A stretch of DNA of 32,445 nucleotides from an uncultured Desulfobacteraceae bacterium (lineage in GTDB: Bacteria; Desulfobacterota; Desulfobacteria; Desulfobacterales; Desulfatirhabdiaceae). The translations under genes and the position numbers were made by a program. The DNA lies in NCBI GenBank assembly GCA_903839535.1, contig CAIMCT010000144.1:1-32445 (forward strand). The letters are read 5' to 3'. How positions within the stretch are numbered: position 1 is the stretch's first letter; every line of letters starts with the position of its first letter. The notes under the pieces were generated by a model, which saw only the letters and a list, made by a program, of their open reading frames with translations, made no database searches and was not told the DNA's origin. Of this stretch, positions 19,214-32,445 are shown in pieces.

Positions 19214-19753
19214 ATGAATGAAATCACGCTGACATCTGATGGCGTTATCGTTTCTGACGGCCGACCGGCTGAAGCCGGTCGGCCTCTGATGTTTCTCAGC
19301 GCTCAGGTCAAACTGGCCTCCGATTATACCCTGCGGGGGTTTTTTAAACTGATCGAAAAATACCCGCTCCTGTCGGAACTTAATCCGTTTTTTGCAGCTT
19401 CTCTGGAACAGTACCGTAAAAGCCCTGCCGGCGGATGCCATGAACCATCTCTGGATTGTCTGCTGCTTACAAAGACTATCGAAATGATAGGTTTCCCAGG
19501 AAAACCCCGCCTTGAAATATACCACTCGCTGTATGGGCTTCAAGGGCTGAATTTTCATGAAATCAAGGATTTCCCGCTTGAAAACCTTCTGGATATGCCC
19601 CTGACGCTGGGGAAACTCAAACACGTTGTTTTTGGCGACAAGGTGGATATCTTCGAGTTTGATACGGTATTCACTCTATTTGAACTGATTGATGCCATTT
19701 TATGGGAGCTCAGCTTTCATGGTACACTATTGGCCTGTGAAATACGGAGGTGA
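19214..19753 (+). CDS. Unknown protein downstream of hmcF
   Basis: A 179-aa protein I do not recognise. It has no signal peptide or membrane helix. Conserved-looking parts are SDYTLRGFFKLIEKYPLLSE, CHEPSLDCLLLTKTIEMIGF and a C-terminal FDTVFTLFELIDAILWEL segment. The first 25 residues are encoded partly by a palindrome (19259-19284), so translation may really start at the in-frame ATG 19289 (MFLSAQVKLASD). Neither start has a good ribosome binding site, and coupling to hmcF 6 nt upstream is likely. The stop lies 2 nt before the Usp start. Its place between hmcF and the stress protein suggests an accessory or regulatory role for Hmc. Confidence 0.8.
   Translation: MNEITLTSDGVIVSDGRPAEAGRPLMFLSAQVKLASDYTLRGFFKLIEKYPLLSELNPFFAASLEQYRKSPAGGCHEPSLDCLLLTKTIEMIGFPGKPRLEIYHSLYGLQGLNFHEIKDFPLENLLDMPLTLGKLKHVVFGDKVDIFEFDTVFTLFELIDAILWELSFHGTLLACEIRR
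19259..19284. repeat. Perfect 11-bp stem with TGAA loop inside a gene start
   Basis: GGCCGACCGGC, TGAA, GCCGGTCGGCC. It encodes the residues around GRPAEAGRP of the 179-aa protein and resembles the GC palindrome at 8702-8721 (shared CGACCGGC). Confidence 0.75.
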
Positions 19754-19755
19754 CA

Positions 19756-20676
19756 ATGTTCGATAAAATCATGTTTGCAACCACCGGAACGCCAGTTTGC
19801 GATAATGCCGCACATGTGGCGTTTGATATCGCGAAAAAATACAATTCGAAGCTTCATATGTTTCATGTGCTGGGGCTTCCGACCAGGGGATTCGGCCAGG
19901 TTGTGGTGGATACCCGCACCGGCGAAGAAGAAAGCTACGACCTGGATTATATCTCATGGGTAGGGGAAGAGCTTAAAAATACCTACGACAAATATCTGGC
20001 TACCTGTAAAAGCTGCGAAATTGACTCCATTGCAGGCATCCCCCATACCGAGATTCTAAGAAAGGCGCGCAAGATAGATGCGGATCTCATTGTTATGGGC
20101 GCGCATTCCCGGCAGGAAGAGACGGGCGCTACCCGGTACCGGGGGGCAGTGGGCACAAACATGCAGAAAGTGGCCAGAGGCGCCAGATGTCCGGTGCTGA
20201 TTGTCAGCAGACCCTGCACCACATGTCTGTGGTATTTCTCCAATATCGTATTTGGGACTGATTTCAGCAAAGCCTCTTTTTCGGCATTTCTGTTTGCTTA
20301 TAAACTGGCGGAGGAAATTGGCAGCAAGCTCTATATTTTCCATTCCCTTGATTTAAGTCAGGTTCATGCAGGCAAGGTTGTTCCCCAGGAAGAGATTGAA
20401 GCTCGAATCCAGGAAGCCAGAAAAAAAATCGAAAAACTCTATGTTCCCCATCTCAAAGGTTACGACAACTATGAAGTCGGTATCTGGGAAGGAATTCCTT
20501 ATGTGGAAATTCTGAAATATTCCAGGGCCAAAAACGCAGACCTCATTGTGATGGCTCATCACACCAAGGAAGTTGATCCGGATGCCGCAATTCTTGGCAG
20601 CACAGTAGAGCAGGTGGTACTGCGGGCCTCATGCCCAGTCGCCAGCGTTAACCACCCGGACAAGGTTTCGGGCTGA
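19756..20676 (+). CDS. Tandem-domain universal stress protein (UspA family)
   Basis: Two Usp domains in 306 residues: the first (about 1-155) opens MFDKIMFATTGTPVCDNAAH and the second (about 158-300) opens NIVFGTDFSKASFSAFLFAY. Each ends with a typical nucleotide-binding strand-loop: DLIVMGAHSRQEE...GTNMQKVARGARCPVLIV and DLIVMAHHTKE...LGSTVEQVVLRASCPV. The second keeps GS(T/N)xxxV, the first is altered (GTNMQKV), so ATP binding may differ between domains. ATG 19756 has GGAGG 5 nt upstream; a GTG at 19750 is inside that site. A Cys pair in SRPCTTCLWYF is unusual. The preceding gene ends 2 nt upstream. Confidence 0.93.
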   Translation: MFDKIMFATTGTPVCDNAAHVAFDIAKKYNSKLHMFHVLGLPTRGFGQVVVDTRTGEEESYDLDYISWVGEELKNTYDKYLATCKSCEIDSIAGIPHTEILRKARKIDADLIVMGAHSRQEETGATRYRGAVGTNMQKVARGARCPVLIVSRPCTTCLWYFSNIVFGTDFSKASFSAFLFAYKLAEEIGSKLYIFHSLDLSQVHAGKVVPQEEIEARIQEARKKIEKLYVPHLKGYDNYEVGIWEGIPYVEILKYSRAKNADLIVMAHHTKEVDPDAAILGSTVEQVVLRASCPVASVNHPDKVSG

Positions 20677-21281: not shown

Positions 21282-23219
21282 TTGACTAAAGGCACGCAAA
21301 AAAAGCTCCTGCTGGTTGATGATGAAGAAGGTATTCGCAAGGTGTTGGGAATATCATTGTCCGATATGGGATATGATGTTCTTACCGCTGAAAGCGGCGA
21401 TGAAGCCCTATCTATATTCAGATCAGAATCCCCCCCCATTGTATTGACCGATATTAAAATGCCAGGGCTGGACGGCATTGGTCTGCTGCAGAAAATCAAG
21501 ATTGAAAAACCTGAAACCGAAGTCATCATGATTACCGGCCATGGGGACATGGAATTGGCCATAAAAAGTCTCAAGCTGGAAGCCACGGATTTTGTCACCA
21601 AACCCATCAATGACGACGTCCTTGAAATAGCCCTCAAGCGAGCCAATGAGCGTATTCTGATGCGCAGTCAGTTGAGGTCTTATACGGAAAACCTTGAGCT
21701 GATGGTCAAGGAAAAATCAGAAAAACTCGTTGAACTGGAACGGCTGACTGCGATCGATCAGGCAATGGAAGGGCTGTCGTCAGCCATGCGAGGTATTGCA
21801 GACGATCTGGGAGAGGACCGGCTGCGGCATTTCAATGAAATGCCCTGTTTTGTGTCGGTGCATAACCGTCAGTTGAAAGTTCTTGCAGCCAATCGTCTGT
21901 ATCTTCAGCGTCTTGGAAGCGCCGTGGGAGAAGACAGTTGGAAAATATACAGAGGCAAAACAGCAACCCCCGAGCAATGTCCGGTAGGAAAGACGTTTTC
22001 CAGCGGTTCAGGTCAGCGGATTCGAGAGGTTGTTGCGTTTTCGGATGGTTCACAGTCTCTGGTTATGGTGCATACTGCGCCGATTCGAAACAGCGACGGA
22101 ACCCTGGAGCTGGTGCTTGAAATATCAGCGGACATCTCCGAAGTCAAACGGCTTCAGGATGAGCTGGATGCCACCCAGCAGCGGTATCAGCAGCTTTTTG
22201 ACGAGTCCCCGTGTTACATTACGGTTCAGGATCGAAATTTCAGAATAATAGCAACCAATAAGCGATTTAAGGAAGACTTTGGGGATGAACTGGATTCCAG
22301 ATGTTTTCAGGTGTATCAGAACCGGTATGAGCCATGCTGCAATTGTCCGGTTTCCAAAACATTTGAAGATGGTCAGCCCCATCAGGCGGAAATCACCGCC
22401 ACTTCAAAGTCCGGGGAACAGATTCATCTTCTGGCAGGCACTGCGCCGCTGCGGAATGCTTTCGGGCAGATTGTTCATGTAATGGAACTGGCGACCAACA
22501 TTACCCAGGTGCGAAAGCTTCAGGATCACCTGTCCTCTCTGGGACTTCTGATGAGTTCCATTTCTCATGCGGTCAAGGGGATGCTGACAGCCCTTGATGG
22601 CGGCTTATACTTGATTCAATCTGGCCTGAAGAAAAATGAACCGACCCTAATTCAGGAAGGCATTGATGCGGCGAATCTTACGGCGGAGCGGATTCGAAAT
22701 GCGGTTCTGGATATTCTCTATTACGCCAAAGAACGTGAACTGAAAAAGGAAGACACCCCTGTTTCGAGTCTGGTGCGTGATGTGTTTCAGATTATTGAAC
22801 CCAGGATGAAGAATTTGCCCATTGCTTATGCTTGTGACATTGAACCCTCCCTGGGAAGCATTGAAGTTGACCGCACTGCATTACGGACGGCGCTGGTCAA
22901 TATTCTGGAAAATGCCGTTGAAGCCTGTGTGGAGGATTCCGGTAAACCGTCACACAGAATCGGTTTTAGCGCCAGAGCTAATGGCAGCCATCTGCTGTTT
23001 GAAGTCAGTGATGATGGGATCGGGATGGATCAGCAAACTCAGGAAAAGCTGTTTTCCCTGTTTTTTTCTTCCAAAGGACAAAAGGGAACCGGATTGGGTC
23101 TCTTTATTGCGCAAAGGGTGATCCGGCAGCACCAGGGGACTGTTTCCGTGCTTTCCAGTTTAGGTAAGGGAACAACGGTCAGCATTCTCATTCCGGTCAG
23201 ATCTGACATTGCCATATGA
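21282..23219 (+). CDS. Hybrid receiver-PAS-PAS sensor histidine kinase
   Basis: A 645-aa soluble hybrid kinase with no membrane helix. Domains in order: REC (about 5-120; phospho-acceptor Asp57 in VLTDIKMPG), a coiled linker (LELMVKEKSEKLVELERL), two PAS domains (about 165-285 and 290-405), a histidine box SISHAVKG (His429) and an ATPase domain with N-box NILENAVEAC, DDGIGMD and GTGLGL. Both PAS domains carry a Cys-Pro-Val motif (QCPVGKTFSSG and CNCPVSKTFEDG), which could sense redox state or bind a cofactor. Start is TTG 21282; no ATG or GTG is in frame between it and the stop upstream. It lies after the receiver protein and ends 2 nt before repeat copy C. Confidence 0.92.
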   Translation: MTKGTQKKLLLVDDEEGIRKVLGISLSDMGYDVLTAESGDEALSIFRSESPPIVLTDIKMPGLDGIGLLQKIKIEKPETEVIMITGHGDMELAIKSLKLEATDFVTKPINDDVLEIALKRANERILMRSQLRSYTENLELMVKEKSEKLVELERLTAIDQAMEGLSSAMRGIADDLGEDRLRHFNEMPCFVSVHNRQLKVLAANRLYLQRLGSAVGEDSWKIYRGKTATPEQCPVGKTFSSGSGQRIREVVAFSDGSQSLVMVHTAPIRNSDGTLELVLEISADISEVKRLQDELDATQQRYQQLFDESPCYITVQDRNFRIIATNKRFKEDFGDELDSRCFQVYQNRYEPCCNCPVSKTFEDGQPHQAEITATSKSGEQIHLLAGTAPLRNAFGQIVHVMELATNITQVRKLQDHLSSLGLLMSSISHAVKGMLTALDGGLYLIQSGLKKNEPTLIQEGIDAANLTAERIRNAVLDILYYAKERELKKEDTPVSSLVRDVFQIIEPRMKNLPIAYACDIEPSLGSIEVDRTALRTALVNILENAVEACVEDSGKPSHRIGFSARANGSHLLFEVSDDGIGMDQQTQEKLFSLFFSSKGQKGTGLGLFIAQRVIRQHQGTVSVLSSLGKGTTVSILIPVRSDIAI

Positions 23220-23221
23220 AT

Positions 23222-23328
23222 TATACTGCGAACTGGCATAATTTTACGTTTTTGATCCCCCACCCCAACCCTCCCCCGCTGGGAGAGGGAGTTTATGAAA
23301 AGCGCAGATTATGCCAGTTCGCAGTATA
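23222..23328 (+). repeat. 107-bp inverted-repeat-ended element, copy C
   Basis: Same family as copies A and B with perfect 21-bp terminal inverted repeats beginning TATACTGCGAACTGG. It begins 2 nt after the kinase stop codon. The following 23329-23522 holds the palindrome at 23453 and no gene. Confidence 0.95.
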
Positions 23329-23522: not shown

Positions 23523-25838
23523 ATGGGGCGTAATGCCATTGATCAAAATTTGTTGGGTGAAATAGAAAAACTGGGCGCCAAGGATATGGAGCTGTGCATG
23601 CAGTGCGGGAATTGTGCTGCAACCTGTCCCTTGTCAAGTGGCACCAATACCTTTCCACGAAAAATATACCGTTATCTTCAACTGGGATTAAAAGATAAAT
23701 TACTCGAATCTCCCGAACCATGGCTCTGTTATTACTGCGGTGACTGTAACACAGACTGTCCCAGGGGTGCTGAGCCGGCAGAAACCATGATGGCCACCAG
23801 ACGCTGGCTGACAACACAGTTTGACTGGACCGGCCTTGCCCAATTATTTTATTCATCACCCAAATGGCAGGTAGCCGCTTTTCTGACCGTAACACTGGGG
23901 ATTATTCTGCTTTTTCTCTTCGGACACGGGCCGGTTATTACCGATCGGGTCGCCTTGAATTCATTCGCCCCCCCCCACTGGGTGCATATCGGTGACCAGA
24001 TCATGTTCGCCATACTGGGCGCCCTACTCCTTTCAAATGGATTTCTCATGTACCGGGGTATTATGAAGAACACCCCAATACCCATTGTCACCTACCTTAC
24101 CCAAGCCCCGGTCTTTTTGCTCCACTATCTGACCCAGAAACGATGGCGCAAATGCGGAACAGGTCCAAGCTCCAGATGGCTGCGACATTTTCTATTGTTT
24201 TCCGGTTATGTCGTAATGGAAATTTTCATCATCGGTTTTCTCGAAAACTTCCAGACGGACATTGTGCATCCTTTCTGGCATCCCACACGGATTTTCGGAT
24301 ACTACGCAACGGTTGCACTCATGCTGATTTCGGGCAACATGCTATATAGCAGATGGTATGTAAAAGAAGAAAAGCTTCACCGATATTCCGATTTTACAGA
24401 TGTGTTTTTTCTGATTTTATTATTTGTCAGCGCTTTCACCGGGATTCTCATTCATATCTTCCGTCTTTCAGGGTGGCCAATCGCCACCTACACCATCTAT
24501 ACCATTCATGTCGCCATCGTTGTCGGCATGCTTAGTATCATGCTTCCCTTCGGCAAGTTATCCCACCTTTTTTACAGGCCTTTGGCCATCTTTTTGACTA
24601 CGTTAAAAGAAAAAGCTGTCAAAGAATCCCAGGTCGTTTTTGAGACAGTGACAAAAGATGTGGGTGACAATTTTATGGGTTGTATGCAGTGCGGTACCTG
24701 TTCCGGTGTTTGCCCGTGGAGCCGGATTACCTATTACAGCCCTCGACAGATACTCAGAAATATCAGCCTTGAAACCTGTACCCAGGCAACCGTTGATACG
24801 ACCGCCTGGGATTGCGCCACCTGCGGTGCCTGTGTGGAGCATTGCCCAAGAGGGATTCAAATCATTGATCTTGTAAAATCCATACGCGAGCAGAATGTGG
24901 CCGCCAAAAAACTTCCCCAAATTTTTACGGCCCCTGTCAGCAGCCTGAAAAAGAAAGGAAATCCCTGGAACGGCAAGCCGCAGGATCGGCTTGACTGGGC
25001 AAAAGCTGTTGGTATGCCAGCTTTTAGCCGGGAGAATGAGTACTGCCTTTTCACCTGCTGCACGACCGCTTATGATACCAGCTCTTCAAAAGGCTGCGAA
25101 ATGGCCGGCAAGTCACTGGTGAAATTACTCGCCCTTGCCGACGTCTCCTTTGGGACACTGGGGGACAAGGAAAGCTGCTGTGGTGATCAGGCTGCTTCCA
25201 TAGGCGAAAAAGAAACATTTTCAGGTCTTGAAAAGAAAAATACGGATATGTTTATTGGTTCTGGGGTTAAAAAGATTTTAACCTTCTCTCCACACTGCAT
25301 GAATACATTCAAAAATCAGTATGCTGGCTTGAAAAATGCTGTGGATACGGAGCATTATATTGAACTTCTCGACAGGCTGATAGCAACAGGCCGGATCAAA
25401 CCGGTGGGTATGATTGATATGACTGTCACCTATCATGACCCCTGTTATCTGGGACGGCACAATGGCATTTACGATGCGCCCAGAAGAGTGCTGAACAGCA
25501 TCCCAAAACTCAGGCTGGTTGAAATGGAAAATAACAGGGAAAGAAGCCTGTGCTGCGGCGGTGGCGGCGGTGGCCTCTGGAAAGAGTATCCGCTGGATCA
25601 TCGGTTTGGTGTCGTGCGTGTGCGTCAGGCGATTAAAACCGGCGCTGATGTTATTGCGACGGCTTGCCCCTATTGTATCCGGATGCTGAATGAAGCCATA
25701 ACTGAACTGAATGTCGAAAATAAAATACAAGTTCAGGATATTTCTGAACTCGTGTTAACATCGGTTGAATTTTCGAATGATACCAAAAAGAGTCATACCC
25801 ATATTACAAGCCTTGAGCAGGAGGACTGTCATGTCTGA
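23523..25838 (+). CDS. HdrC-cytochrome b-HdrD fusion (QmoC-like plus HmcF-like)
   Basis: A 771-aa membrane protein in three parts. Residues 25-79 form an HdrC-like ferredoxin (CMQCGNCAATC and CYYCGDCNTDC). Residues about 115-380 form a NarI/HdrE-like membrane domain of five or six helices with likely haem-ligand His and a closing FGKLSHLFYRPLAIF. Residues 387-441 are a second ferredoxin (CMQCGTCSGVC, CATCGACVEHC), followed by two CCG domains (about 508-610, 639-720) with SCCGDQ, SPHCMN, DPCYLG, LCCGGGGGG and ACPYC. The first half resembles QmoC, the second HdrD/HmcF. It may exchange electrons between menaquinone and the flavoprotein partners or a disulfide. The start ATG has a weak GGGGAC upstream. 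Its stop overlaps the next start (ATGTCTGA). Confidence 0.9.
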   Translation: MGRNAIDQNLLGEIEKLGAKDMELCMQCGNCAATCPLSSGTNTFPRKIYRYLQLGLKDKLLESPEPWLCYYCGDCNTDCPRGAEPAETMMATRRWLTTQFDWTGLAQLFYSSPKWQVAAFLTVTLGIILLFLFGHGPVITDRVALNSFAPPHWVHIGDQIMFAILGALLLSNGFLMYRGIMKNTPIPIVTYLTQAPVFLLHYLTQKRWRKCGTGPSSRWLRHFLLFSGYVVMEIFIIGFLENFQTDIVHPFWHPTRIFGYYATVALMLISGNMLYSRWYVKEEKLHRYSDFTDVFFLILLFVSAFTGILIHIFRLSGWPIATYTIYTIHVAIVVGMLSIMLPFGKLSHLFYRPLAIFLTTLKEKAVKESQVVFETVTKDVGDNFMGCMQCGTCSGVCPWSRITYYSPRQILRNISLETCTQATVDTTAWDCATCGACVEHCPRGIQIIDLVKSIREQNVAAKKLPQIFTAPVSSLKKKGNPWNGKPQDRLDWAKAVGMPAFSRENEYCLFTCCTTAYDTSSSKGCEMAGKSLVKLLALADVSFGTLGDKESCCGDQAASIGEKETFSGLEKKNTDMFIGSGVKKILTFSPHCMNTFKNQYAGLKNAVDTEHYIELLDRLIATGRIKPVGMIDMTVTYHDPCYLGRHNGIYDAPRRVLNSIPKLRLVEMENNRERSLCCGGGGGGLWKEYPLDHRFGVVRVRQAIKTGADVIATACPYCIRMLNEAITELNVENKIQVQDISELVLTSVEFSNDTKKSHTHITSLEQEDCHV

Positions 25839-28800
25839 ACGAATCGGATTCTATATCTGCCATTGCGGTATTAATATCGCCTACCGGGTTCGGGTGGCTG
25901 AAGTCGCCGCATATGCATCAACCTTTCCCGGGGTGGTGGTGGCGCGGGATTATTTATTTATGTGCTCTGATCCTGGCCAGGAACTTATTGAAAGTGACGT
26001 TAAAAAATACGATCTGACCCGGGTGGTGGTGGCTTCCTGTTCGCCAAGGATGCATGAAAAAACGTTCAGGTCCGCCTGCCAGCGGGCGGGGCTCAACCCT
26101 TACCATGCTTTTCATATGGTATGTGTCAGAGAGCATGGATCATGGGTAACAGAGAATGAAGATGATGCCACGGAAAAAGCAAGAATTATCGTAAGGGCGG
26201 GCCTTAAAAGAGTCTCTTTCCAGAATGCACTGATTCCGAGCCAATTCTCCGTCAATTCAAACAGTCTGATAGTGGGTGGCGGCATCGCCGGAATGCAGGC
26301 CGCCATTGACATTGCGAGTGCTGGGTTCAAAGCCTACCTGGTTGAAAAAGCGCCGACTGTGGGTGGTCATATGCTTCAATACGACAAAGCATTTCCCACA
26401 CTCGACTGTACCGCCTGTATCGGCACACCCAAAATGGTGGCGGTCGGCCAGGATAAAAATATTGAATTAAAAAGCTATTGTGAAGTTGAACATGTCAGTG
26501 GGTTTGTGGGTAACTTCAAGGTTACGATCAATAATAAGGCAAGATACATCAAAACCAATTGTACAGGGTGTGGTGACTGTGCAAAGGTCTGCCCGGTTGA
26601 TTTCCCCAATGAATGGGATGTCAATACGAAAATGCGAAAAGCTGTTTACCTGTCCTTCCCCCAGGCCGTGCCGGTCAGATACGTGATTGACAAAAGAACA
26701 ACGGCCCCGTGCAGAACCTCCTGCCCTGCCGGAACAAATGTACAGGGATATGTACAGATGGTCAAAATCGGTAATTATCAGCAGGCCCTCAATATCATCA
26801 TGGAACGTCTGCCTTTGCCCGGAGTCCTGGGACGGGTATGCCCCCATCCCTGTGAAACCGACTGCAGAAGAGCGTTGGTGGATTCTGCTGTTTCTATCCG
26901 GGATTTAAAAAGATTCGCTGCCGATCATGCCAGATTAGAGGATGTCCCCCTTCCTGAAGTTGAAGAAATTGATAAAAAGATCGCTGTCATAGGATCCGGT
27001 CCCGTTGGACTTACCGTGGCGTATTATCTAAGGCGCAAGGGATTTAAGGTTTGCATATTTGAGTCCATGGAAAAACCGGGTGGTATGCTGAGAACCGGTA
27101 TCCCTGATTACAGGCTGCCGCCGGCCATACTGGATCAGGAAATCGGTCATATTCTGTCCACAGGGGTCACGATTAAAACCGGCATGGCTTTGGGCCGTGA
27201 TTTTACCCTGGCAAGTCTTAAAGACCAGGGCTTTGATGCCATATTCCTTGGAATAGGTGCCCATGTTCCCGTCAAAATGAATATTGAAAATGAAGATGCG
27301 GACGGAGTAGTGGATGCGGTGCCATTCCTTCGCAAGGAAAACCTTGAAAAGGCAGGGTCTGCTAAAAAGAGGGTCGTGATCATTGGCGGTGGAAATGTAG
27401 CCATGGATGCGGCCAGAGTCGCCGTAAGATCCGGCGCCCAAAGCGTATCAGTCGTTTACAGAAGAACCGAACAGGAAATGCCTGCCGACCATGAAGAGAT
27501 TGAAGGCGCCAAGGAAGAAGGCATTAACTTTATCACGCTTGTGGGACCTAAAAAAGTGGTGACGGAAAACGGCAGGGTTATAGGCATTGAATGTATTAAA
27601 AATAAACTTGGCCCTGTCGATGCGGGCGGAAGAAGGCGGCCTGTCCCCATTGAAGGCAGTGAATATGTAATTGCCTGCGACATGATCATCCCCGCCATTG
27701 GTCAGAGCGTTGAAACTGAGCCCGTTTTAAAGGACACACACTTTGATCTGACCGCACGGGGAACCTTTAAGGTTGACCCTTTTACCATGCAGACATCGGA
27801 ACCAGGAGTTTTTGCCGCAGGGGATGCCGTCACAGGACCTGCCACAGTGGTTGAGGCCATTGCCGGAGGTCACAAGGTTGTCAAAGCCATTGAACGATAT
27901 TTAAACCATGAAATGGACTTATTTGACAAAGAAAGAAAACAGCAAGAAGAGAATACCAAGCCAGATGAAAAGAATTTTGTTCCCATCCCCGAAGATGCGG
28001 CCCTGGTGGCCAGAGCCAAGTCGGTATTTATAGAGCCTGTCACAAGGAAATCCTCTTTTGAAGAAGTGGATATGGGACTTTCAGAAGCTTCCGCCCAAAG
28101 CGATGCGGGGAAATGCCTGAACTGTGGCGGTTGCTGCGAGTGCAAACTATGTGTGGATGCATGTAAAGCCAAGGCCATTGACCACGACATAAAAGATGAA
28201 CGGGAAATCATCGATGTCGGATCCATCATCATCGCCACCGGATTTGATCTCCTTGACCCAACCCCCATGACCCAATATGGGTATGGTAAATATGCCAATG
28301 TGTTTACCAATCTTGAATTTGAAAGGTTATCCAACGCCACGGGCCCGACCCTGGGAAAGCTTTTGAAACGTGATCTTAAAGATCGCATGAAGTTTACCGA
28401 ACCGCCAAAAAGTGTGGCCATTCTTCATTGTATCGGTAGCCGCGACATCAATTATCATGAATACTGTTCCCGGACCTGCTGCATGTATGCGTTGAAATAT
28501 GCACATCTTCTCAAGGATAAATGTGGTCACGGCACCATGGTTTACAATTTTTATATTGACATGCGCTGCTTTGGGAAAGGGTATGAAGAATTCTACAAAA
28601 AAGTCCAGTCTGAAGGCGTTCGCATGATCAGGGGAAAGGTCGGCTCCATCACTGAAGCGACAAACGGCATGCTGACGGTTGTGGCGGAAGATACGCTTTC
28701 CTGCAGAATGCTTGAAATTGAGGTGGATATGGCCATTCTTTGTACGGCAATGGAGCCAAGATCCAATGCTCAGGATGTCATGCGTAAATTCGGTATTGGC

Positions 28801-29220
28801 ATTGGCGCCGATGGATTTTTTCAGGAAGAACATCCCAAGCTCGCCCCGGTATCCACTCCATCCAGTGGAGTTTTCCTTGCAGGCGCATGCCAGGGTCCAA
28901 AGGATATTCCCGATACCGTGGCCCAGGCAAAGGGAGCGGCAGCCGAATGTATGGCCCTGAGTGCAAAAGGTATCGTCGAAGTGCCACCCATGATTTCATA
29001 TATCGATCCTGATGTATGTGTGGGCTGCCAGGTATGTATCGTACTCTGCCCCTATTCCGCCATTGAATTTGATTATTTCAACGCCATTTCAGTCGTCAAC
29101 AGTGCTGTGTGCAAGGGGTGTGGCAGTTGTGCAGGCCATTGTCCCAGCGGTGCGGCAAAAGTTCGCCACTTTACAGACCAACAGATTTTTGCGGAAATAG
29201 ACGGATTATTACTTAATTAA
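25831..29220 (+). CDS. HdrA with inserted GltD/NfnB-type NAD(P)H module
   Basis: A 1129-aa flavo-iron-sulfur protein. Residues 1-290 are HdrA-like: FYICHCGINIA, VASCSPRMHEKTF, FAD-binding VGGGIAGMQAA (about 148-158), FPTLDCTACIGTPKM and a ferredoxin motif CTGCGDCAKVC. Then comes an inserted GltD/NfnB-like unit (about 290-700) with CRTSCPAGTNVQGY, a first dinucleotide fold GSGPVG (about 389), GGGNVAMDAARVA (about 519) and AAGDAVTGPATVVEAIAGG. HdrA resumes with CLNCGGCCECKLCVDACKAKA (from 762) and HCIGSRD, and ends with CVGCQVCIVLC (about 1064) and CKGCGSCAGHC. HdrA flavin is the electron-bifurcating centre, so this protein probably couples NAD(P)H to it directly. ATG 25831 has AGGAGG upstream and overlaps the previous gene by 8 nt. 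Confidence 0.92.
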   Translation: MSERIGFYICHCGINIAYRVRVAEVAAYASTFPGVVVARDYLFMCSDPGQELIESDVKKYDLTRVVVASCSPRMHEKTFRSACQRAGLNPYHAFHMVCVREHGSWVTENEDDATEKARIIVRAGLKRVSFQNALIPSQFSVNSNSLIVGGGIAGMQAAIDIASAGFKAYLVEKAPTVGGHMLQYDKAFPTLDCTACIGTPKMVAVGQDKNIELKSYCEVEHVSGFVGNFKVTINNKARYIKTNCTGCGDCAKVCPVDFPNEWDVNTKMRKAVYLSFPQAVPVRYVIDKRTTAPCRTSCPAGTNVQGYVQMVKIGNYQQALNIIMERLPLPGVLGRVCPHPCETDCRRALVDSAVSIRDLKRFAADHARLEDVPLPEVEEIDKKIAVIGSGPVGLTVAYYLRRKGFKVCIFESMEKPGGMLRTGIPDYRLPPAILDQEIGHILSTGVTIKTGMALGRDFTLASLKDQGFDAIFLGIGAHVPVKMNIENEDADGVVDAVPFLRKENLEKAGSAKKRVVIIGGGNVAMDAARVAVRSGAQSVSVVYRRTEQEMPADHEEIEGAKEEGINFITLVGPKKVVTENGRVIGIECIKNKLGPVDAGGRRRPVPIEGSEYVIACDMIIPAIGQSVETEPVLKDTHFDLTARGTFKVDPFTMQTSEPGVFAAGDAVTGPATVVEAIAGGHKVVKAIERYLNHEMDLFDKERKQQEENTKPDEKNFVPIPEDAALVARAKSVFIEPVTRKSSFEEVDMGLSEASAQSDAGKCLNCGGCCECKLCVDACKAKAIDHDIKDEREIIDVGSIIIATGFDLLDPTPMTQYGYGKYANVFTNLEFERLSNATGPTLGKLLKRDLKDRMKFTEPPKSVAILHCIGSRDINYHEYCSRTCCMYALKYAHLLKDKCGHGTMVYNFYIDMRCFGKGYEEFYKKVQSEGVRMIRGKVGSITEATNGMLTVVAEDTLSCRMLEIEVDMAILCTAMEPRSNAQDVMRKFGIGIGADGFFQEEHPKLAPVSTPSSGVFLAGACQGPKDIPDTVAQAKGAAAECMALSAKGIVEVPPMISYIDPDVCVGCQVCIVLCPYSAIEFDYFNAISVVNSAVCKGCGSCAGHCPSGAAKVRHFTDQQIFAEIDGLLLN

Positions 29221-29234
29221 ACAGGAGTCTTGAT

Positions 29235-29669
29235 ATGAGCGAGTTTGAACCAAAAATAGTGGGCTTTTTTTGTAACTGGTGTACGTTTACCGCTGCAGAT
29301 CTGGCGGGTACGTCTCGGTTGTCGTACCCGCACAATATTAAAATTATCCGGATGATGTGCAGTGGAATGGTGGATCCCAAGTATGTCATCAAAGCTTTTC
29401 TAAACGGCGCAGACGGTGTGTTGATCGGTGGATGCTGGCCCGGAGATTGCCATTATATCAATGGAAATCTCAAGGCCAGACGACGGGTGGCCATGCTGAC
29501 TGAAATTTTAAAAGAATACGGGATTGACGAGAAACGGTTCTGGCTTCGCTGGATTGCGGCAAGTGAAGGGACCATGCTTAGGGAAGTCGTCAGTGAAATG
29601 ACCGCCAAACTTAAAGCGCTCGGCCCAAGCCCTCTTAACAGGGAAGCCCCAGGCAAAGAAAAAAAATAG
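29235..29669 (+). CDS. MvhD/FlpD-like 2Fe-2S electron-transfer protein
   Basis: A 144-aa protein of the MvhD family, which links a hydrogenase or dehydrogenase to HdrA through a 2Fe-2S cluster. Conserved segments are FFCNWCTFTAADLAG, IRMMCSGMVDP and IGGCWPGDCHY, which supply the five Cys usual for the family. The usual His in the GCHPGDCHY-type motif is Trp. The C-terminus ends in a Lys-rich tail. AGGAG precedes the ATG by 8 nt, and the gene follows hdrA by 14 nt. Confidence 0.94.
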   Translation: MSEFEPKIVGFFCNWCTFTAADLAGTSRLSYPHNIKIIRMMCSGMVDPKYVIKAFLNGADGVLIGGCWPGDCHYINGNLKARRRVAMLTEILKEYGIDEKRFWLRWIAASEGTMLREVVSEMTAKLKALGPSPLNREAPGKEKK

Positions 29670-29693
29670 GTTGAAAAAACGGAGAAGATACAA

Positions 29694-30824
29694 ATGGCGA
29701 ATTTTATAAAATTGTCCTTTAAAAAAGGCGAACTGAATCAAAAACTGGCCGATATTTTCAAAGGCATGATGGAAAAAGGTGTGGTAAACGCCCTGCTTGC
29801 TCCCATGAAGCAACCTAAAAGAGGGGTGATGCTGACGCTTGTTACCGATCCGTTCCATCTGGAAGCCATTGATCCTTTTGCACCGGTGGCGCCTGTGAAT
29901 GGTGCAAAGGTTGTCTCATCCATCACAGCGAAACCTTCCGGCAGAAAGATGGCGGTGGTTTTAAGATCATGCGAGATCAGGGCGCTGATTGAGCTTTGCA
30001 AACTTAAACAGGCCAATCTTGAGGATGTACTGCTTATCGGCATTGACTGTCTTGGACGATATGAAAACCTTGACTTTGTCAAGCTGCAGGCTGCTGGAGA
30101 ATCCTCTGAGTCTTTTATTGTAAAGGCCCTTGCAGGAAATACGGAGAACAGCGGCTGTGATGTTTCCGGCGCCTGCAAAATATGTGAATTCCCGGTGGCG
30201 GACAATGTGGATTTAAGGCTCTGCATCATTGGTACAGGTACTGACGCCCTTTACATTGAAAGCCTTACGCCTAAGGGAGATCAAGCTCTTGAAGCAGTGG
30301 GTCTCAAAACCGGGGATACTCCAGGCAACCGGGAAGCAGCGGTTCAACAATTAGTAAAAAAGCGAAAAGAAGCCTGTGATGCGGCATTCGCCCAGTACAG
30401 GGCATCCACCCATAGCATTGACGCCCTTGAAGACAAACTTGCCAACTGCATTAACTGTTATAACTGCAGAGTGGCGTGTCCTGTCTGTTATTGCAAGGAA
30501 TGTGTGTTTGTGACCGATACCTTCCGCCACAACGGAGATCAGTATATGGGATGGGCGGATACGTTCGGAACACTTAAAATGCCGACAGACACAATTTTTT
30601 ATCACTTGACCCGTATGAGTCATATGAGTCTGTTCTGTGTCGGATGCGGTCAGTGCACCAGCGCCTGTCCTAACAGTATCGATCTGATGCCCATTTTCAG
30701 GACGGCGGCCCAGAAGACCCAACAGAGGTTTAATTACCAGGCAGGTCGATCCCATGACGAAAAGCAGCCGTTGACTGTTTTTGAGAATGATGAGTTGGTT
30801 GAAGTGACAGGGCAGGTAAAATAG
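29694..30824 (+). CDS. FrhB/FdhB-like iron-sulfur oxidoreductase subunit
   Basis: A 376-aa protein of the coenzyme F420 hydrogenase/formate dehydrogenase beta-subunit type. The N-terminal part shows RSCEIRALIELCKLKQANLE and GIDCLGRYENLDF; the middle has SGACKICEFP; the C-terminal half has CINCYNCRVACPVCYCKEC (Cys 252-270) and CVGCGQCTSACP (315-325), two 4Fe-4S sites. Family members bind FAD or F420 and pass electrons to an Hdr or dehydrogenase partner. No formate dehydrogenase or hydrogenase catalytic subunit is present, so its donor is unknown and could be ferredoxin. GGAG lies 10 nt before the ATG; 24 nt separates it from the MvhD gene. Confidence 0.9.
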   Translation: MANFIKLSFKKGELNQKLADIFKGMMEKGVVNALLAPMKQPKRGVMLTLVTDPFHLEAIDPFAPVAPVNGAKVVSSITAKPSGRKMAVVLRSCEIRALIELCKLKQANLEDVLLIGIDCLGRYENLDFVKLQAAGESSESFIVKALAGNTENSGCDVSGACKICEFPVADNVDLRLCIIGTGTDALYIESLTPKGDQALEAVGLKTGDTPGNREAAVQQLVKKRKEACDAAFAQYRASTHSIDALEDKLANCINCYNCRVACPVCYCKECVFVTDTFRHNGDQYMGWADTFGTLKMPTDTIFYHLTRMSHMSLFCVGCGQCTSACPNSIDLMPIFRTAAQKTQQRFNYQAGRSHDEKQPLTVFENDELVEVTGQVK

Positions 30825-30833
30825 GAGAATATT

Positions 30834-32445
30834 ATGGCAGAAAAAAAGCCCACAGGCACGGTTCTTGTCGCAGGCGCCGGCGTTTCCGGGATAAAAGCCG
30901 CCATAGAGCTGGCTGAGATCGGATACAAGGTTTTGCTGACGGATTCGTCACCCCAGATCGGCGGTATTCTGGCCAAGCTGGATAACCAGTTTCCCACGGA
31001 TCACTGCGGGATGTGCCGGATGTTGCCCATGGTTGGCCGGGAGTATGCTTCCCAATACTGTATGCGCAAAGGCCTGTACCATGAAAATATAGATATCCTG
31101 CCGTTTACCGAGCTCAAAAGCGTTGAAGGGGATGCCGGTAATTACACCATCGAATTATTAAAAAAAGCCCGATATATTGACACGGACAAGTGTAACGGAC
31201 TCGGTGAATGCATAAAGGTCTGTCCGGTTGAAGTTGCTGACGAATTCAACCACGGTCTGACCAGACGAAAAGCTGTTTACAAACCCGTCCCCCACAGCAC
31301 GCCCCAGATGCTTTTAATCGACATGGATGCCTGTACCCGATGCAATGCCTGTGTTGATGTCTGTCCCACTCATGTCATCAATCTTGAGGCGGAAGACGAA
31401 CTCTTTACAAGACAGGTTCATGCGATTATTCTTGCATCAGGTGTAAAGCTTTATAATTTGAAAGAATTTGAAGACGCCAAATCATGGGCTGTGTCTCCCG
31501 ATGTGGTCAGTTCCCTTGCTTTTGAGCGAATTATTAGCGGGTCAGGTACCTTTGACGGAGAAATCAAACGGCCATCCGATGGCAAATCTGCTAAAAAGAT
31601 TGCCTGGGTGCAATGTATGGGGTCCAGGAATAGAAGACAGAAAAGAGATTATTGTTCCTCTATCTGCTGCATGTTTGCACTCAAAGAAGCCGTGCTGGCC
31701 AAGGAAAAAGGCGGTGACGATGTTGAAACCACTATTTTCTACATGGATATGCGAACCTTTGGTAAGGATTTTTACCGATACTATGAAAAAGCCGTTGATG
31801 AGCATGGGGTAAAACTGATTCGCTGCCGTGTCCAGGGGGTTATGCTTAATCCGGATAAAAGTCTTTCCATGCGATATTATGATTCTGAAACCCAGAAATT
31901 TTTTGTGTCTGATTATGACATCGTGGTTCTTTCAACCGGACAGGTTCCCTATGAAACACATAAAAAACTGGCGGATATGCTTCATCTCGAAGTCAATCCA
32001 TTAGGCCTTTTACCCACCGAGACATATGACAAGGTCAAGCTGGTTAAGCCGGGGGTGTTTTTATGCGGGTCCCTCATGGGGCTCACCGATTTAAGCGAGG
32101 CCATCAGCAGCGGAATCGCCGCTGCCGGACAAGTCAGCAGATTTTTATCAAGTATAGATGTGTCCATACTTGAAGAAGAGGCGATTGCCGAACCCACTGC
32201 AAAGGACAGAGATGAGCCACTCATATCGGTTGTTCTTTGTAAATGCAGTGAAAAAGTGGAAAAGAGCAGTGTTGATTTTAGCGCACTTGGAACAGGACTA
32301 AAAAAGCTGAACAGTGTAGGCGAGGTCAATATCATTGATATGGTCTGCAGTGATGAAGGGGAAAAAACTGTTCTTGAACTTCTGGGCAAATCAAAATGTA
32401 ACCGCCTCCTGATTGGGGCCTGTCATCCTTTCATGTATCGTAAAT
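30834..32445 (+). CDS. Second HdrA-like flavoprotein (3' end off the window)
   Basis: At least 537 residues, open to the window edge. The FAD motif VLVAGAGVSGIKAA opens the protein, so the N-terminal HdrA segment of the other protein is missing here. FPTDHCGMCRMLPMVGREYA replaces the usual TLDCxAC site. Ferredoxin motifs CNGLGECIKVCP (one Cys spacing unusual) and CTRCNACVDVCP follow, then QCMGSRN, a CSSICCMF site and SGIAAAGQVSRFL. At the visible end, ISVVLCKCSEKVE and LLIGACHPFMYRK resemble an HdrA N-terminal domain placed C-terminally, so the full protein may be a permuted or double HdrA, or QmoB-like. TAGGAG lies 7 nt before the ATG. There is no GltD insert. Confidence 0.88.
   Translation, partial: MAEKKPTGTVLVAGAGVSGIKAAIELAEIGYKVLLTDSSPQIGGILAKLDNQFPTDHCGMCRMLPMVGREYASQYCMRKGLYHENIDILPFTELKSVEGDAGNYTIELLKKARYIDTDKCNGLGECIKVCPVEVADEFNHGLTRRKAVYKPVPHSTPQMLLIDMDACTRCNACVDVCPTHVINLEAEDELFTRQVHAIILASGVKLYNLKEFEDAKSWAVSPDVVSSLAFERIISGSGTFDGEIKRPSDGKSAKKIAWVQCMGSRNRRQKRDYCSSICCMFALKEAVLAKEKGGDDVETTIFYMDMRTFGKDFYRYYEKAVDEHGVKLIRCRVQGVMLNPDKSLSMRYYDSETQKFFVSDYDIVVLSTGQVPYETHKKLADMLHLEVNPLGLLPTETYDKVKLVKPGVFLCGSLMGLTDLSEAISSGIAAAGQVSRFLSSIDVSILEEEAIAEPTAKDRDEPLISVVLCKCSEKVEKSSVDFSALGTGLKKLNSVGEVNIIDMVCSDEGEKTVLELLGKSKCNRLLIGACHPFMYRK

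Follow-up and report, generated by a model that had tools for sequence, protein, structure and literature searches.

An HdrL-type operon with a putative membrane anchor in an uncultured Desulfobacteraceae bacterium, and a predicted receiver domain within HdrA of its relatives

The window, that is, the whole stretch of DNA analysed here, is the 32,445-nucleotide contig C144 of the draft genome G000 (5.66 Mb, 580 contigs, 99.46% complete) from an uncultured Desulfobacteraceae bacterium. At its end lies an Hdr operon of five open reading frames (ORFs) on the forward strand, which run from 23523 to 32444 and beyond with spacings of -8, 14, 24, and 9 bp. The first encodes a 771-aa fusion of HdrC, QmoC-like cytochrome b, HdrC, and HdrB parts (23523..25838), as assigned from NCBIfam, Pfam, and solved relatives. 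It is followed by HdrL, an 1129-aa HdrA with an NfnB/GltD module (25831..29220; matches to solved structures), a 144-aa MvhD/FlpD (29235..29669; PF02662, E 1.5e-50), a 376-aa FdhB-like iron-sulfur flavoprotein (29694..30824; PDB chain matches), and the N-terminal part of a second HdrA (30834..32445; NCBIfam HdrA2-type match and alignment). Throughout, parts were assigned with Pfam and NCBIfam models and sequence matches to solved structures. All five named parts are real and tightly packed. The contig stops at 32445, leaving the last gene incomplete, and the five-gene operon proposed in the initial annotation stands with that reservation.

The fusion was initially described as HdrC-cytochrome b-HdrD. 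These parts are present, but there are two HdrC-type dicluster modules rather than one: a QmoC-like region (residues 9-356, cluster motifs at 25 and 69) precedes the second HdrC (motifs at 387 and 431). The C-terminal HdrB part carries two CCG domains according to Pfam, and the NCBIfam models TfrB and HdrC match the C-terminal half of the protein. Hydrophobic stretches are found between residues 113 and 350. Seven histidines, candidate heme-type ligands (His 135, 222, 253, 286, 311, 329, and 348), are invariant in 7 fusion homologues, all of which keep the Fe-S cysteine motifs. The fusion is probably a membrane anchor with a menaquinone site and an HdrB-type cluster site. No description of a QmoC-HdrD fusion was found in the openly licensed PubMed Central (PMC) papers searched, the literature to which all such statements below refer.

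The start of HdrL overlaps the fusion gene by 8 bp. Residues 3-289 of HdrL match HdrA 5odc_A (4-291), residues 292-770 match NfnB/GltD-type chains, and residues 768-1127 match 8rvu_a (301-653). The NfnB insert splits HdrA between residues 291 and ~301, which places the module within the inserted ferredoxin domain, between its two clusters. As in other HdrL proteins, HdrA is thus interrupted by a pyridine-nucleotide oxidoreductase module and adjoined by MvhD (at 29235). Both the inserted-ferredoxin and the C-terminal ferredoxin motifs are retained. In many relatives, and also in the window genome (L167, 6304-10560, C217), there is a longer HdrL type (~1480-1530 aa) whose gene contains a single in-frame TGA, probably encoding selenocysteine.

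The fourth protein was initially called FrhB/FdhB-like, and this is borne out by its relationship to FdhB of methanogen Hdr complexes (9t1s_M, 8.2e-29; 8rvu_E, 8.6e-25; 7bkb_E, 2e-15). No Pfam FrhB/FdhB model matched it at E 0.001, and Fer4 matches were the only ones obtained. The best PDB relatives of HdrL, the FdhB-like protein, and the HdrC parts include chains of 8rvu, 7bkb, and 9t1s. These shared methanogen complexes therefore provide structural precedents for a contact between HdrA, MvhD, and FdhB.

It was also suggested initially that the gene set links NAD(P)H, ferredoxin or an F420-like carrier, and menaquinone or a thiol substrate without a dedicated hydrogenase. Most of this agrees with the predicted parts, namely an NfnB/GltD module, a likely ferredoxin port, a cytochrome b, and an HdrB-type site; the F420-like carrier does not. 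The F420 ligase family PF01996, which matches in 3 of 14 control genomes, has no match in the window genome (580-contig draft, 99.46% complete). Two CofH-like matches were found on contig C183, both under the curated cut-off, and we take this pair to resemble a menaquinone-pathway pair. F420 was therefore rejected as a carrier and is unlikely to serve the window complex. By Pfam and NCBIfam, no hydrogenase subunit (MvhA and MvhG included) is found among the five proteins, within an operon cut by the contig end, and the same models gave no match there to EtfA or EtfB, subunits of EtfABCX quinone complexes.

When the gene order was searched for in other genomes, HdrL was found in 39 of 93 relatives, with 54-69% identity over at least 900 of its 1129 residues. 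Forty neighbourhoods were fetched, 38 from these 39 genomes (not G045) and two from genomes with partial matches (G002, G004); further partial matches in G060, G071, and G089 lie outside this set. According to tblastn, 37 of the 40 contain the MvhD gene and 35 the FdhB-like gene. The five without the latter are L049, L053, L072, and L078, where contigs end, and L077, where ~8 kb past HdrL show neither gene. Given this recurrence of HdrL with conserved neighbours, the gene set is no chance run.

The HdrL tree, comprising 43 rows, resolves into three groups. Clade A (32 rows) consists of soluble proteins, and clade C of four loci (L074-L077) with HdrC-HdrB upstream. Clade B unites the window with six relatives (support 100/100), and all of its members have the membrane fusion directly upstream of HdrL. 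Separate HdrC and HdrB genes lie downstream in 24/24 clade A loci with a judged second HdrA, compared with 0/3 clade B relatives, which suggests that the fusion stands in for HdrC and HdrB. The same-genus relative G001 carries the clade A form; soluble and membrane forms thus do not follow species kinship. Two extra small genes resembling the HdrC-like and half-HdrB parts of HmcF were also noted in some loci (L170, 5677-6984; L086, 12684-13982; L074, 11361-12608).

In relatives the second HdrA is ~1150 aa long and contains an insert of ~115 aa that matches the receiver family PF00072 (E 6.9e-33 in L043 and 1.3e-29 in L058). An FAD domain with its inserted ferredoxin domain is followed by the receiver, the remaining FAD domain, and a second HdrA unit made up of an N-terminal domain, an FAD domain, and a C-terminal ferredoxin domain. 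When HdrA of L086 is aligned with 5odc_A, the flanks of the receiver end at residue 314 and resume at 316, indicating a clean insert at the point where the chain passes back from the inserted ferredoxin domain into the FAD domain. An AlphaFold2 model of L086 (mean pLDDT 76.9, pTM 0.74, 14 sequences) contains alternating strands and helices at 191-310, and its residues 4-566 align to HdrA 150-576 (407 residues, rmsd 2.3, Z 42.5). Fold comparison of this model showed no receiver fold, its list being filled by FAD-domain matches (model residues 724-1060); the receiver is assigned from sequence and predicted secondary structure. No description of a receiver inside HdrA was found.

The second HdrA could be judged in 30 of the 40 neighbourhoods, of which 27 have the receiver and three (L074, L075, L076) do not. 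The other ten are cut or without a second HdrA (L041, L042, L046, L049, L051, L053, L072, L073, L077, and L078). Together with L086, L088, L089, and L168-L173, the insert occurs in 36 distinct genomes, L087 being a duplicate of L064 that was counted once. Both sets were checked by hand, which showed L049 to be an unrelated HdrA fragment, L171 to have the receiver, and L168 to have a degenerate one. A scan of genome contigs with two alignment-derived patterns, one of them a receiver motif, listed at least 80 loci, most of which were rejected as unrelated receivers; among the matches listed, L086-L089 are HdrA with a receiver-like insert, degenerate in L089. In an even sample of 297 genomes across the phylum, nine have a match at E 1e-60 that covers both HdrA and the receiver, and two of these (G132, G361) are degenerate. 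The same search found none in the window genome.

The second HdrA of the window differs from this pattern. It begins without the N-terminal domain and comprises an FAD domain and an inserted ferredoxin domain, with 537 residues before the contig end. No receiver insert is present in its alignment with the relatives, nor is a stand-alone receiver gene found upstream of the operon. The residues EDELFTR, which align under VVDDELIVR, were considered as a receiver remnant and judged to be an alignment accident in an ordinary HdrA linker. In a tree of the N-terminal half, the window HdrA falls outside a receiver-bearing group on a long branch with weak to moderate support (91% SH-aLRT). Its HdrL, unlike its second HdrA, falls within receiver-bearing groups in the HdrL tree. 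Either the receiver was lost in the window lineage or the HdrA was replaced. Contig C217 (L166, 2-4180) starts within an HdrA gene of this family, of which it holds the C-terminal half, and then encodes HdrC, HdrB, a universal stress protein, and a receiver. The two HdrA halves have no sequence overlap. Because both lie outside the receiver-bearing group on long branches, C217 probably continues the window operon.

From the gene content, domain architecture, and operon-like spacing of the window, the conservation of cluster and heme-type ligands, and the conservation of the locus, it appears fairly probable that the window encodes most of a membrane-anchored HdrL-type complex for flavin-based bifurcation or confurcation in a menaquinone-using sulfate reducer. 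Complex formation, donors, acceptors, direction, and bifurcation coupling are predicted as follows. Electrons from NAD(P)H would enter at the NfnB module of HdrL, and the FdhB-like subunit, acting via MvhD, would be a second flavin port for entry or exit. The HdrA flavins would split or merge electrons between a ferredoxin branch and a higher-potential branch. The former would run via the inserted ferredoxin domains, and the latter through the HdrC-HdrB and cytochrome b domains of the fusion to menaquinone or a disulfide. The fusion would also anchor the whole complex to the membrane.

Several observations weigh against this scheme. The QmoC model scores 223.1 bits on the fusion, under its curated cut-off of 300. 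In the HdrB part a single CxxC-ended cluster motif is retained, which makes disulfide reduction uncertain. Residues 118-128 of the second HdrA read CNGLGECIKVC, in which Leu takes the place of a Cys conserved in almost all aligned sequences; this change in the first inserted-ferredoxin motif, found in the same HdrA copy that is receiver-less, may impair one ferredoxin port. Finally, if C217 continues the operon, the genome also has separate HdrC and HdrB genes, and the idea that the fusion replaces them is weakened here.

The altered motif could be read differently. HdrA-type proteins in Qmo act as relays, and the window proteins could form a comparable conduit without bifurcation, in which menaquinol or NAD(P)H feeds one cytoplasmic acceptor through HdrA relays, or the reverse, with no ferredoxin coupling. 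Both the altered motif and the QmoC-like membrane domain of the fusion fit such a conduit. It is nevertheless unlikely, since MvhD, FdhB, and the pyridine-nucleotide module are not Qmo parts and HdrL keeps its inserted-ferredoxin and C-terminal ferredoxin motifs. A still less probable alternative is a thiol/disulfide enzyme, in which the HdrB site of the fusion would reduce or oxidise a protein or low-molecular disulfide (a DsrC-like partner) while the cytochrome b exchanges electrons with menaquinone. This would agree with the CCG domains, one of which has the canonical C...CCG...CPYC motif, and with the TfrB and HdrB-type matches. The first CCG motif, however, is without the final CxxC, in which respect it presumably resembles one-cluster relatives, and no DsrC-like gene occurs among the genes scanned or labelled.

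For the relatives, a further idea concerns control of the ferredoxin-linked bifurcation. In the M. wolfeii complex, as summarised in PMC9012536, ferredoxin receives its electrons by way of the inserted ferredoxin domain. A receiver at the root of this domain would therefore be well placed to gate the ferredoxin branch. It is conceivable, as a tentative proposal, that a two-component phosphorelay switches bifurcation: a nearby kinase would phosphorylate the HdrA receiver and so open or close the low-potential ferredoxin branch, with the window lineage representing a derived membrane form that dropped the receiver. Gating of bifurcation by phosphorylation is thus a hypothesis, open to test, about the relatives and not a property of the window copy. 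Alternatively, the receiver may be a mere spacer or phosphate sink that does not control electron flow. Receiver-less HdrA exists in the window and in L074-L076, so the enzyme can dispense with a receiver, and three lineages keep a degenerate one. Still, the spacer or sink is doubtful. The residues aligned to D198, D199, D242, T270, and K292 of L043, which are the five phosphorylation residues, are kept in 33 of 36 genomes. The receiver also has the highest mean pairwise identity of any HdrA segment, at 68.8% among 25 of the 36 sequences; the FAD/ferredoxin part before it reaches 63.9%, and the remaining segments lie at 29.6-60.0%. A mere spacer would be expected to diverge, as does a stand-alone receiver encoded immediately ahead of the first Hdr gene in 24 of the 43 loci examined (the two genes overlapping by 4 bp in six); its mean identity is 36.5%, and its phospho-Asp is lost in 10 of the 24. 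The degenerate inserts, with phosphorylation residues lost, are those of L089 (10001-13426), L168 (7413-10877), and L169 (8667-12212); these loci have a universal stress protein gene after HdrB.

Regulator genes are common near the receiver-bearing loci. Of the 27 HdrA-receiver loci, 26 (all but L067) contain one or more ORFs similar to a two-component or sigma-54 regulator, and 23 contain one similar to a reference histidine kinase; these labels come from BLAST matches, some of which may reflect the receiver part. The same labelling found no such regulator ORFs in the four clade C loci. Receiver-bearing loci average 2.2 two-component genes per 10 kb of flank. As these genomes hold very many receivers, this density does not serve as a test, and proximity of regulators by itself is weak evidence. 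In the window genome, a membrane PAS kinase and REC-kinase pair on contig C282 (L174, 5628-9073) is related to the pair beside the Hdr loci of other species (54% and 43%), and on this 11.5 kb contig it is unlinked to Hdr genes.

Upstream of the Hdr operon, the window contains hmcA, hmcB, and hmcF-type genes (NCBIfam equivalogs HmcA, HmcB, and HmcF above cut-off), and the organism thus has sulfate-respiration genes. After them come a universal stress protein gene (19750-20676) and a forward-strand gene for a REC-PAS-PAS-HATPase histidine kinase (21282..23219; Pfam). Kinases and a universal stress protein also accompany hmc clusters in D. multivorans (PMC5109826, excerpts), and by this precedent the window kinase may serve hmc instead of the Hdr operon; it may belong to either. 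The REC-kinase beside the Hdr locus of L170 shows 59% (REC) and 47% (kinase) to the window kinase; its best match in the window genome lies on C282. Between the kinase gene and the operon is a palindromic repeat of ~108 bp (23222..23328, no strand assigned), which matches itself on the opposite strand. At least 41 near-identical copies in the genome (98-100%, the window copy counted) were found with 40 of 409 candidates scored, and the repeat looks like a recently spread miniature mobile element. A sigma-54 promoter before the operon was considered and rejected: a scan for the -24/-12 type pattern, allowing up to two mismatches, yielded 15 hits where chance alone predicts 21, and no hit fell between 23220 and 23523.

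Of the many HdrA paralogues in sulfate reducers, few have known partners and control. A membrane fusion tying an HdrL complex to the quinone pool would define a specific, testable path connecting NAD(P)H, ferredoxin, and menaquinone. Within the literature searched, a receiver placed where electrons pass through a bifurcating enzyme would for the first time connect two-component signalling directly with flavin-based bifurcation, and the receiver in HdrA offers a single Asp to mutate.

The types of part are already known, whereas the supported clade of seven membrane-fusion HdrL sequences is without description in the papers searched. The initial annotation allowed that the set might be a known named complex, and this is half the case: HdrL/HdrA loci and HdrA/NfnB fusions have been described, and the papers searched contain no membrane fusion. 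HdrL was named in 2009 in Desulfobacterium autotrophicum HRM2, where locus VIII holds an HdrL/HdrA tandem with MvhD, FdhB, and HdrB/HdrC (PMC2702500, excerpts), and was taken up again in 2025 for Desulfurivibrio dismutans. The window shares with locus VIII an HdrA with an NADH-binding glutamate-synthase-like insert, MvhD, FdhB, a tandem HdrA, and HdrB/HdrC. By description, to which this comparison is confined, no membrane QmoC-HdrD fusion and no receiver in HdrA is mentioned in those excerpts, and a figure legend there records response-regulator, histidine-kinase, and CheY-like genes near Hdr loci. HdrF of D. autotrophicum likewise has transmembrane, HdrC, and HdrB parts in one protein. Its genes cluster with glpAB or etfAB, whereas the partner in the window is HdrL, and the window fusion adds an N-terminal HdrC module and a QmoC-type cytochrome b.

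In ANME-1, HdrA/NfnB fusions, tandem HdrA, and clusters of FdhB with HdrA have been reported (Chadwick 2022; PMC9012536, excerpts). As in HdrA9-11, an NfnB-like insert of ~500 aa occupies the inserted ferredoxin domain. Tandem HdrA with a complementary N-terminal domain and Cys197, and FdhB-only HdrA clusters, are further likenesses. That system is archaeal, and the halves of the fused HdrA are in the opposite order here; the main text of the paper contains none of the terms "response regulator", "receiver domain", or "histidine kinase". The QmoC-like HdrC-cytochrome b part and the HdrA-type partners recall QmoABC. The window differs from it in the sub-cut-off QmoC score, the added HdrC-HdrB part, the FdhB-like subunit, the NfnB insert, and MvhD, which is a separate gene rather than a QmoB-type HdrA-MvhD fusion. 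Lastly, HdrA, HdrC, MvhD-type, and FdhB-type parts are shared with the methanogen Hdr-Fdh supercomplexes (7bkb, 8rvu, 9t1s), relative to which the five genes include no FdhA and add the NfnB insert and the putative membrane anchor.

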